A stretch of 44,888 bases of DNA from Nocardioidaceae bacterium (GTDB lineage: Bacteria > Actinomycetota > Actinomycetes > Propionibacteriales > Nocardioidaceae): positions 1 through 44,888 of the forward strand of contig JACCVZ010000067.1 of NCBI GenBank assembly GCA_013697905.1. The letters run 5' to 3'. Within the stretch, counting starts at the first letter, position 1, and every line of letters begins with the position of its first letter. Of the stretch, positions 13,006 through 16,653 are shown piece after piece. The position numbers and the translations under genes are program-made. The notes below the pieces were generated by a model, which did no database searches, had not been told where the DNA came from, and was given only the letters and a program-made list of their open reading frames with translations.

Positions 13006-13064
13006 GGCGAGACACTAGTGCATGAATAGCGACAGTGCGCCGAGCCACCGGTCATACTTTCGCC

Positions 13065-13931
13065 ATGGCTGCCACTCACTCGCACGACTTCGTCCTCACC
13101 TTGCGCTGTCCAGACCGACCAGGGATCGTGCACGCCGTCTCCGGCTTTCTCGTCGAGCAGACGGGCAACATCAGCCAGAGTCAACAGTACGGTGACGTCG
13201 AGACCGGGAGCTTCTTTCTGCGCGTCCAGTTCGAGGTGCTCGGCGAGCAGGTGACGGTCGAGCAGCTGCGGGGACGCTTCGCCCCCGTCGCCGAGAGCTT
13301 CTCGATGACGTGGGAGATGTGGGACGCTGGCGCTCGCTACACCACCTTGATCATGGTGTCGCGCTTCGGCCACTGCCTTAACGACCTGCTCTTTCGCTGG
13401 AGCAGCGGAGCCCTGCAGATCGACATCCCCGCCATCGTGTCGAACCACCGTGACTTCGAGCGGTTGGCCGCGTCGTACGACATCCCGTTCCACCACATCC
13501 CGGTGACGCCGGACAACAAGCCCGCCGCCGAGCAGCAGCTGCTCGAGCTGGTCGACGGGCTCGACGTGCACCTGGTCGTGCTGGCGCGCTATATGCAGGT
13601 GTTGTCGGACGATACCTGCCGGGCGCTCTCGGGTAAGGCGATCAACATCCACCACTCGTTCCTGCCCAGCTTCAAGGGCGCTCGGCCCTACCATCAGGCG
13701 CACCAGCGGGGTGTGAAGCTGATCGGCGCGACCGCGCACTACGTGACCTCCGACCTCGACGAAGGTCCGATCGTCGAGCAGGACGTCGCACGCGTCGACC
13801 ATAGCTTCACCCCTGACCAGCTTGTGGCGGCCGGCCGAGATGTCGAGAGCCAGGTCCTCTCGCGGGCCGTCCGATGGCATGGCGAGACCCGGGTCATGCT
13901 CAACGGCACCAAGACGGTCGTCTTCCGTTGA
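13065..13931 (+). CDS. purU: Formyltetrahydrofolate deformylase
   Basis: LTLRCPDRPGIVHAVSGFLVEQTGNI (ACT) plus INIHHSFLPSFKGARPYHQAHQRGVKLIGATAHYVTSDLDEGPIVEQD. Confidence 0.95.
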   Translation: MAATHSHDFVLTLRCPDRPGIVHAVSGFLVEQTGNISQSQQYGDVETGSFFLRVQFEVLGEQVTVEQLRGRFAPVAESFSMTWEMWDAGARYTTLIMVSRFGHCLNDLLFRWSSGALQIDIPAIVSNHRDFERLAASYDIPFHHIPVTPDNKPAAEQQLLELVDGLDVHLVVLARYMQVLSDDTCRALSGKAINIHHSFLPSFKGARPYHQAHQRGVKLIGATAHYVTSDLDEGPIVEQDVARVDHSFTPDQLVAAGRDVESQVLSRAVRWHGETRVMLNGTKTVVFR

Positions 13932-14013
13932 CCTGCCACCTTCTTGGCGTTGACCCGCCACCTTCTTGGGTTGACCCGCCACCTTCTTGGCGTTGACCCG
14001 TCAAGTTGTCGGC
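13927..14013. repeat. Left array: 3-4 tandem copies of GTTGACCCGCCACCTTCTTGG(C)
   Basis: Copies at 13927, 13949, 13970 and a diverged one at 13992; period 21-22 bp. Confidence 0.9.
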
Positions 14014-14136
14014 GTAACGCCGACCCCGTCCTGCTTCACTGACATTGGCCGGCCTACCGGCATCCCTCGCCGTGGTTGATGGGACCCCTGTGGATAACAG
14101 CCCCGCGCGTGGCGCGATCTCGGGCAGGGTCCTCTG

Positions 14137-15054
14137 ATGATGCTCGCGACTCAGATTCCTGACGGCCCATTCACCTGGTCGATGATCCGAGACTCCGGCG
14201 TGGCTCGTGAGCAGTTGACCGCCTGGGTCACCAATCGCCAGGTACGACGCATCCTTCAGGGCGTATACGTCCGGAGCGACGCTCCCGACGACCCTCGTGC
14301 CCGCGCCCGTGCCGCTGCGCTCGTGATGAGACCGTTCGCCGTTGTGTGCGACCGTTCCGCGGCGTGGATTCATGGCGTCGACACGTTCGAGTTTCGCGAG
14401 CTTGAGATCTTGCCGCCGCTTGAGACATGGGTCTTGCGCAACCACTCCCGAATCCGTCGGAGGGCTTGCGCAGGCGGACAACGCGACCTTGCCGGCGGTG
14501 ACATCATGACGATCGGTGAGATACGGCTCACCACGCCATTGCGAACCGCACTGGACTTGGCATGCCGGTTGAGCCGTCGCGAGGCCCTGGCTGCACTCGA
14601 TGGATTCAGGCGCGTTCATGGCCTCACCCATAAGGACTTCGAGCGAGAGCTACCTCGGTATCGCCGCCGTCGCGGCGTGGTCCAGCTCCGGCAGCTGATC
14701 CCGTTGGCGGACGGGCGCTCAGAGTCCCCAGGGGAGTCGTGGACCCGGCTGTGCATTGTCGATGACGGGCTCCCCTGCCCCACCCCCCAGTACTGGTTGG
14801 TTCACCGAGGAGTGCCGATCTTCCGGCTCGACCTGGCGTACCCGGCATGCAGGGTGGCGATCGAATACGACGGCTCGGAGTTTCACGACTCCGTCGACCA
14901 GCGGGAGCATGACGCTAAGCGCCGCGAGTGGCTGAGACGACACGGGTGGACGGTCATTGTGGTACGTAAAGACTCTTTCACGGGTGACGTACTGGCGGCG
15001 TGGTTAATCGAGCTCCGCCGCGCGCTGTCTGCTCGCGGCCGTGTCGCCCGGTGA
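14137..15054 (+). CDS. AbiEi-antitoxin-like N-terminal / DUF559 (Vsr-like nuclease fold) C-terminal protein
   Basis: Winged-helix start (SGVAREQLTAWVTNRQVRRILQGVYV) and C-terminal CRVAIEYDGSEFHDSVDQREHDAKRREWLRRHGWTVIVVRKD. Confidence 0.7.
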   Translation: MMLATQIPDGPFTWSMIRDSGVAREQLTAWVTNRQVRRILQGVYVRSDAPDDPRARARAAALVMRPFAVVCDRSAAWIHGVDTFEFRELEILPPLETWVLRNHSRIRRRACAGGQRDLAGGDIMTIGEIRLTTPLRTALDLACRLSRREALAALDGFRRVHGLTHKDFERELPRYRRRRGVVQLRQLIPLADGRSESPGESWTRLCIVDDGLPCPTPQYWLVHRGVPIFRLDLAYPACRVAIEYDGSEFHDSVDQREHDAKRREWLRRHGWTVIVVRKDSFTGDVLAAWLIELRRALSARGRVAR

Positions 15055-15076
15055 CCGTGGCCAACACCAAACGAAC

Positions 15077-15110
15077 TGGCGGGTCAACAACAACGAAATG
15101 GCGGGTCAAC
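15077..15110. repeat. Right array: two TGGCGGGTCAAC copies in inverted orientation to the left array
   Basis: 15077-15088 and 15099-15110, 22-bp period; core is the reverse complement of the left-array core GTTGACCCGCCA. Confidence 0.88.
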
Positions 15111-15118
15111 GGAAAGGG

Positions 15119-16558
15119 TCAGTCGCCGAGCTCGGCGCGGCGACGGGAGACGTACTCCGCCAGCTCGGTCCGGATCGCGTCGTCGAGCGGTGGCGGCTCG
15201 AAGGCCTCGAGCTTGGCGCGGTAGATCTTCGTCGCCCGGGCCGCCGTATCGAGGCTGCCACCGCGCATCCACCGCTCGTAGTTGTCGGACGAGGACAGGA
15301 ACGGCCGGTAGAAGCAGGTCCGGAAACGTTCCATCGTGTGCATCGCGCCCAGGAAGTGACCCCCGTGGCCGACCTCCACATGGGCGTCGAACGCCAGCGT
15401 CGCCTCATCGATCTCTAGCGGCGTGAACTCGACCTGCAACATCTCCAGCAGCTGTACGTCGACGATGAACTTCTCGAAGCCCGCGACCAAGCCGCCCTCG
15501 AGCCAGCCGGCCGCGTGCATCACCCAGTTTGCCCCCGCCAAGAATGTCGGGAGCAACGTCATCACCGCCTCATATCCGGCCTGCGCGTCAGAGACCTGGC
15601 TCGACGTCAGTCCCCCACCGGAGCGGAACGGCAGTCCGAAGTGGCGCGCGATCTGGCCGGTGCAGAACAGGCCGATCGCCGACTCAGGGGTGCCGAACGT
15701 CGGCGAGCCCGACTGCATGTCGATGTTGGACAGGAACGAGCCGAAGATGACGGGCGCGCCTGGCCGGATGAGCTGCGCCAGAGCGATGCCCGACAGGGCC
15801 TCGGCGATCTGCTGCACGAGCGCTGCTGGGATCGTCACCGGCGACATCGCGCCCATCAAGATGAACGGCGTCATGACGACGGGCTGCGCCGCACCGGCGT
15901 ACTCGAAGAGCGCGTCAAGCATCCGGTCATCCCAGCGCAGCGGCGAGTTGCAGTTGATGAGCGAGATCGACACCGGGGTCTTCTCGATCACGTCGCGGCC
16001 GCCGAACAGGATCGCTCCCATCGCAATGGTGTCGGCAGCGTTGACGCCTGACACGACGTTGCCCATGTAGATCTTGTCCGTCAGCGTCTGCAGCGCAAAC
16101 GTCATATCGAGGTGGCGCGAGTCGAGCGGAGTGTCGTTGGGCTCGCAGACGACCCCGCCGGCCGAGTCCATCACGTCGTAAGACTGCGCGAGCCTGGAGA
16201 AGTTGCGGAAGTCCTCCATCGTCGCGTCGCGGCGTACGTCGCCCTCCCGCACGAACGGCGGGCCGTACACCGCTCCGAACGCCATCGAGTTGCCGCCGAT
16301 GTGGACCGAGTTGGCCGGGTTGCGGGCCGCCACGTCGAACTCCTTCGGGGCCTTCGCCACCTGAGCGAGCACGAACTCGGGGTCCAGGAAGACGGTGTTG
16401 TCCTCCACCCGTTGGCCGGCTTGGCGAAACAGCGCCAATGCCTGCTCCGACATGAACTCGACACCGATCTCGGTGACGATCCGCCGCCAGCCGGCGTCGA
16501 GCTTGGCCATGGCGTCCTCGGACAGCACCTCGTAGCGCGGCATCGTGTTGGTGAACAT
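15119..16558 (-). CDS. MttB-superfamily (non-pyrrolysine) trimethylamine/glycine betaine:corrinoid methyltransferase-like protein
   Basis: MttB-type sequence (GGGLTSSQVSDAQAGYEAVMTLLPTFLAGANWVMHAAGWLEGGL...); uninterrupted ORF with no in-frame stop; adjacent corrinoid and activation genes. Confidence 0.9.
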   Translation of the reverse strand: MFTNTMPRYEVLSEDAMAKLDAGWRRIVTEIGVEFMSEQALALFRQAGQRVEDNTVFLDPEFVLAQVAKAPKEFDVAARNPANSVHIGGNSMAFGAVYGPPFVREGDVRRDATMEDFRNFSRLAQSYDVMDSAGGVVCEPNDTPLDSRHLDMTFALQTLTDKIYMGNVVSGVNAADTIAMGAILFGGRDVIEKTPVSISLINCNSPLRWDDRMLDALFEYAGAAQPVVMTPFILMGAMSPVTIPAALVQQIAEALSGIALAQLIRPGAPVIFGSFLSNIDMQSGSPTFGTPESAIGLFCTGQIARHFGLPFRSGGGLTSSQVSDAQAGYEAVMTLLPTFLAGANWVMHAAGWLEGGLVAGFEKFIVDVQLLEMLQVEFTPLEIDEATLAFDAHVEVGHGGHFLGAMHTMERFRTCFYRPFLSSSDNYERWMRGGSLDTAARATKIYRAKLEAFEPPPLDDAIRTELAEYVSRRRAELGD

Positions 16559-16653
16559 CAGGTTTTCCGACCTTTCTGCCAAGGCACGCGGCCACCACTT
16601 GGACGTCGACAGGTGCGACCGTACGACGCGCGCGCTTCCAGCATTTAATCATG

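Follow-up and report, generated by a model that had tools for sequence, protein, structure and literature searches.

What kind of element occupies the gap between the convergent genes purU and mttB in a Nocardioidaceae genome, and how could the inverted arrays of short repeats that bracket its single gene have arisen? The preliminary description of this locus had read it as a possible transposase-less cassette, perhaps mobilized in trans by IS21- or Tn7-type machinery. We analyzed the islet within a window of 44,888 nt (the whole stretch of DNA under study; GCA_013697905.1, contig JACCVZ010000067.1), which belongs to a metagenome assembly of 394 contigs, referred to here as the window genome.

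The islet between purU and mttB

The islet and its neighbors have the following features:

13035..13931, plus strand: purU (formyltetrahydrofolate deformylase), left convergent neighbor, stop within the first repeat
13923..14007, minus strand: left array, cores at 13927-13938, 13949-13960, 13970-13981, and 13992-14003; outer end overlaps the purU stop
14008..14136, plus strand: spacer from left array to start codon, presumed promoter or leader of the nuclease gene
14137..15054, plus strand: AbiEi-EDxHD nuclease gene, 305 aa
14137..14721, plus strand: AbiEi-antitoxin-like DNA-binding region, residues ~1-195 (Foldseek, PADLOC, Pfam)
14722..15036, plus strand: EDxHD/Vsr-like nuclease domain, residues ~196-300 (Foldseek, conservation in 42 homologues, Pfam)
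14734-14736, 14830-14832, 14863-14865, 14884-14886, and 14911-14913, plus strand: predicted active-site codons E200, D232, E243, H250, and D259, respectively
15070..15114, plus strand: right array, two 22-bp units, cores at 15077-15088 and 15099-15110, inverted relative to the left array
15119..16582, minus strand: mttB-family methyltransferase homologue, right convergent neighbor

The left array consists of four ~22-bp units, in which the minus-strand core TGRCRGGTCAAC recurs at spacings of 22, 21, and 22 bp, and the right array of two units with the plus-strand core TGGCGGGTCAAC 22 bp apart. This agrees with the three to four left and two right units described previously. When at most one mismatch was allowed, the repeat core gave six matches in the window compared to 0.42 expected, and six were reached in 0 of 100 shuffles. 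The earlier placement of the islet exactly between the two convergent genes was also borne out: the first repeat of the left array contains the purU TGA (13929-13931), and 8 bp separate the last core of the right array from the mttB-like stop (15119-15121). The identity of purU was confirmed by TIGR00655, and the right neighbor is an MttB-family homologue with a score under the TIGR02369 cut-off. The reported ~16-bp terminal inverted repeat is present, with one mismatch, at 13923-13938 and 15099-15114, but repeat core makes up 12 of its 16 bases. Its TTCC extension is, on the left, the last codons of purU and does not recur at other arrays in the window genome; thus, the islet has no true transposon terminus, and a transposon-like end beyond the repeat unit was rejected. 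A simple scan of the spacer found no sigma-70-like site and no intrinsic terminator. The islet as a whole gave no Rfam match and no hairpin or terminator-like site, and we therefore rejected an RNA element or intrinsic terminator as its identity.

The protein encoded by the islet has an AbiEi-antitoxin-like N terminus and a DUF559/MTES_1575 Vsr-type nuclease at its C terminus, as identified by Pfam and PADLOC. The PADLOC AbiEi models match the N-terminal part with an E value of 2.8e-10, and Pfam AbiEi_4 was found in 29 of 42 family members. An AlphaFold2 model built with 42 homologues (pLDDT 93.9, pTM 0.90) was compared to known structures with Foldseek, which returned, each with probability 1.00, the AbiEi antitoxin 6y8q (E 1.5e-5) and the I-Bth0305I catalytic domain 3r3p (TM 0.72 on target), followed by Vsr; the resemblance to TnsA was weak (rank 22, probability 0.66). 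E200 is invariant, and at least 39 of the 42 homologues retain D232, E243, H250, and D259 at each of these positions. We infer from the layout of these residues that they correspond to the active site of the EDxHD nuclease family (PMC3943268), with each residue assigned putatively to its place in the motif. AbiEi proteins bind 23-bp repeats, and one of them, Rv2827c, binds four at once (PMC7319586). The predicted structure indicates that the product of the islet gene is a fusion of a homing-type nuclease with an AbiEi-type DNA-binding part.

Matched arrays in a family of single-gene elements

The window genome carries a second nuclease copy, 58% identical to the first, that likewise lies between inverted outward arrays with a different spacer. 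Homologues gathered by scans, which came mainly from Nocardioidaceae, gave 80 unique elements after profile-based orientation and de-duplication. We scored the match between left and right flanks as the number of 9-mers common to one flank and the reverse complement of the other. The median was 25 shared 9-mers, and 72.5% of the 80 elements reached at least 10, compared to 6.2% for same-strand comparisons, 11.4% for flanks exchanged among elements, and 4.2% around 144 other genes at the same loci. The repeat sequence is particular to each element and varies from one element to the next. The dominant unit length is 21 to 22 bp in 45 loci and 31 to 32 bp in 19 loci, equal to two or three helical turns. 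On the protein tree, this length class changes twice, versus a minimum of 12 changes in 1000 shuffles (the positions of L093, L094, L098, L102, and L112 in the first protein tree were not relied on). A common core, TGNCNNNTCRRC, occurs 124 times in the outward orientation versus 8 times inward.

The nucleases of same-site elements are mostly 60 to 79% identical, their flanking proteins mostly 82 to 100%, and the left array usually fits its own right array better than it fits the arrays of its neighbors. The islet is one member of a large and apparently undescribed family of single-gene elements with element-specific matching arrays; no earlier description of such elements was found in the open-access literature searched. 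Orientation-specific flank matching was absent from 29 distant relatives except L209, distant homologues in other actinobacterial families mostly lack matched arrays, and a phylum-wide generality of matched arrays was therefore rejected. L209 (G328:C1:2095782-2096618), a homologue from outside the order, has matched inverted arrays with units of ~38 bp, another helical multiple. In the complete genome G084, a third nuclease paralogue (L138:17463-18518 plus flanks, G084:C1 ~997,500) is flanked by a 33-bp repeat family that stands beside families of 22 and 31 bp, giving several nuclease-repeat families in a single genome.

Dispersed arrays and the occupancy of gene junctions

Repeats of this kind are also found away from any nuclease gene. 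The window genome contains ~25 more gene-less arrays of TG[ACG]CGG[GCT]TCAAC, and the 13-mer TGNCGGGTCAACG has 45 matches there compared to 0 to 4 in 12 other genomes. The preliminary description had considered that the repeat could be a widespread intergenic motif unrelated to the element ends; it is indeed widespread in intergenic regions of the window genome, but the copies belong to the element's own repeat family. In G084, a repeat of its nuclease has 251 matches versus 18 for the control, and solo arrays of both the 22-bp and the 31-bp types are present. A 19-mer unit is present in 118 copies in G234 and absent from eight other genomes, of which three are congeneric. G234 has a full element at relA-DUF349 and array-only copies with an identical 22-nt unit at purU-mttB, and it is the only genome shown to combine a full element with identical solo arrays at a junction occupied elsewhere by another element. 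In the congener G219 (77% complete genome), the repeat of its own nuclease was found only at its own element, with no dispersal.

Many units form direct tandem arrays; the only inverted pairs are those made by two arrays that face each other across a variable spacer. A conserved mobile unit within the solo arrays was rejected, given that their spacers are not conserved and have only degenerate repeat units in common. Neither a target-site duplication nor a clean minimal insertion unit could be defined from the arrays compared.

The placement of the arrays is far from random with respect to genes. In the window genome, 21 of 26 arrays have their outer edge against the 3' end of a neighboring gene, as do 18 of 22 in G084 (39 of 48). 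The orientation is fixed, and the gene calls behind these counts, made with our own codon-usage caller, are approximate. One more array of the window genome adjoins the 3' end of a tRNA-Glu gene, and 46 of 77 nuclease elements lie between convergent genes. We surveyed the relA-DUF349 junction at 30 loci plus L044. In several genomes, including the congener G219, the stop-to-stop gap is only 4 to 32 bp. In the window genome, the junction holds inverted arrays from that genome's own repeat family, back to back and without a gene. Other array-only forms are found in further genomes, and a full element, belonging to one or the other unit class (p22 or p32), is present in six. At purU-mttB, G219 carries a nuclease of 50% identity with an unrelated 22-bp repeat, next to an mttB that is 94% identical. 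Because both junctions hold differing nucleases and repeats across relatives, we conclude that they have been re-occupied by different lineages. The view of the islet as a discrete element with inverted-array ends is supported, and the occupancy of such junctions is polymorphic between relatives, including at the purU-mttB gap, for which such a comparison had been proposed earlier. Vertical conservation at the site holds to the extent that nuclease elements at this junction are common to relatives, but each has its own repeat. At another junction, site A, one nuclease lineage has been retained across the genus.

Two side observations concern these junctions. In L195 (G231), the 57-bp stop-to-stop gap of purU-mttB is almost wholly one palindrome with an array-like core, and it may be a minimal derivative. 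At site A, the elements of L063, L114, and L117 differ in orientation from those of the other loci, so that either orientation occurs at one conserved junction; in part this reflects separate lineages (L114 and L117) and in part perhaps an inversion (L063).

Candidate mechanisms and related systems

Searches for other machinery were largely negative. No IS21 transposase (NF033546) scored over the cut-off in the window genome, where three weak partial matches reached at best 23.5 bits, a result that is not absolute in a draft genome; an IS21 origin was rejected on this basis. RAYT (PF01797) was absent from all 6 genomes searched, with control genomes positive, and a RAYT origin was likewise rejected. 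No TnsB or TnsA transposition genes are present in the islet. Carriage by plasmids or phages was rejected, given that only weak DUF559 matches were found, on 3 plasmids, and no nuclease homologue was found in 50,697 phage records.

We consider the best explanation, and one to which we lean on balance, to be a repeat system similar to REPIN/RAYT in which the driving enzyme is a non-homologous nuclease of the homing type. The AbiEi-type region would bind the ~22-bp (or ~32-bp) units, with one protein for every two or three turns of the helix, and the EDxHD domain would cut at or beside cognate repeats or at target 3'-end junctions. Recombinational repair after cutting could then copy and homogenize the repeat units. 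Binding, cutting, and a role of cutting as the driver of copying are all inferred here. The expected outcome would be a matched inverted pair of arrays around the gene, with protein and repeats changing jointly and fast, and gene-less arrays of the same repeat dispersed to the 3' ends of other genes. Several results count against this explanation: the undispersed repeat of the G219 element, in a 77% complete genome; the distant actinobacterial relatives that mostly lack matched arrays; and the lack of a definable target-site duplication or minimal insertion unit, together with the non-conserved spacers of solo arrays. More tentatively, we suggest that these elements may form a new class of mobile DNA, in which self-propagating, helically phased recognition arrays are spread to gene 3' ends by a homing-type nuclease-AbiEi fusion without a transposase, recombinase, intron, or intein, and in which nuclease and repeat co-evolve so fast that close relatives carry unrelated repeat families.

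Cutting by itself does not account for the fixed orientation of the arrays at gene 3' ends, which also fits a regulatory role. The protein could be mainly a DNA-binding regulator, with arrays that act as directional terminator- or roadblock-like sites at gene 3' ends to the benefit of the host and a nuclease that is incidental or directed against invading DNA. The 39 of 48 arrays abutting 3' ends are consistent with this, as are the persistence of elements at site A across the genus and the fact that AbiEi proteins are known autoregulators that bind 23-bp repeats (PMC7319586). However, the active-site residues are conserved, the islet has no hairpin or terminator, and arrays that are wholly different between close relatives, or present and absent at one junction, are unexpected of a conserved regulatory site; we regard this role as unlikely to be the main one. 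Autoregulation also enters the notion of a type IV toxin-antitoxin or anti-phage gene, in which the arrays would be operators of an AbiEi-family gene with a fused nuclease. The PADLOC matches and the position of the left array upstream of the start codon point in this direction, but the islet has no AbiEii partner gene, further arrays are found downstream of the gene and at many loci unlinked to it, and the phage records hold no homologue, leaving such a gene very improbable.

The polymorphic junctions could instead reflect a free-standing homing endonuclease that homes into empty convergent-junction alleles between cells, with the arrays as by-products (protected or scarred target sites) and not a dispersing population. 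The modeled EDxHD homing-type fold, the coexistence of empty and occupied alleles in the family, and the hits of different nuclease lineages on the same junctions (p22 and p32 types at relA-DUF349) would all suit it. Homing would not be expected to leave gene-less arrays at tens of unrelated 3' ends in one genome, though, and matched, helically phased left-right arrays are no known feature of such enzymes, making this distinctly improbable. The mobilization in trans proposed in the preliminary description, by an array-binding IS21- or Tn7-type transposase, drew on the resemblance of multiple ~22-bp inverted subterminal sites to such ends. It is largely refuted and now has next to no likelihood: the window genome has no IS21 transposase over the cut-off, the islet has its own homing-type nuclease gene and its repeats track that protein and no IS, and neither a transposon-like terminus nor a duplication was found.

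The preferred reading, a nuclease-driven repeat system, invites comparison with REPIN-RAYT systems, in which a low-copy chromosomal enzyme gene has its own repeat on either side in inverted orientation, non-autonomous copies are dispersed, and persistence is long (PMC8049555). The islet-type gene likewise lies between inverted copies of a genome-wide dispersed repeat found in intergenic 3' regions. In contrast, the enzyme here is an AbiEi-EDxHD nuclease and not an HUH Y1 transposase, which is absent, the repeats are tandem helically phased arrays and not single hairpin doublets, and the arrays take a fixed position and orientation at gene 3' ends. Because no RAYT was found and the units form tandem arrays, the family is not a member of REPIN-RAYT. 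With I-Bth0305I, an EDxHD homing endonuclease, the modeled islet protein appears to share the catalytic fold and the E, D, H, and D residues, and the repeated occupancy of the same junctions would be consistent with copying into cleaved empty alleles. The islet nuclease differs in that it is not intron-borne, has an AbiEi region in place of the phage DNA-binding tail, and is associated with flanking and dispersed arrays. AbiEi antitoxins of type IV toxin-antitoxin systems have the same two-part DNA-binding fold (6y8q), and members bind 23-bp repeats (PMC7319586), whereas the islet is a single gene between purU and mttB with no AbiEii nucleotidyltransferase toxin, a fused nuclease, and arrays far from the gene. 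The C-terminal domain is of the same family as the DUF559/MTES_1575 Vsr-type REase, described within a very large multi-domain protein with no mention of array bracketing in the part of that source consulted (PMC3710099). IS21 and Tn7 ends also have several ~22-bp sites per inverted end, but the sites of the islet vary with its own protein.

To our knowledge, the enzymes linked to date with dispersed repeats of the REP type are HUH tyrosine transposases. The present elements pair a repeat population with an unrelated, homing-type nuclease in a REPIN-RAYT-like relation, in most of a large family annotated only as "AbiEi / DUF559 domain." If the enzyme does cut and spread its own repeats, this would be a second origin of REPIN-like systems and would account for many short intergenic arrays in Nocardioidaceae. 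The ~80 natural protein-repeat pairs with known matches would make the DNA-recognition code of the AbiEi region readable, and the route of nuclease-driven repeats to gene 3' ends would become testable in culturable Nocardioides.

Arrays were also seen around sequences other than nuclease genes. In the window genome, outward inverted arrays of its own family surround arfB, which encodes a ribosome rescue hydrolase, with no nuclease present (L018:1892-2499, C164), and two arrays lie 1.2 kb apart with no recognizable nuclease gene between them (L019:2776-4047, C169), possibly a decayed element. In G234, arrays of its repeat surround single ordinary genes at L245, L256, and L258, as though cassettes had arisen with genes other than the nuclease.
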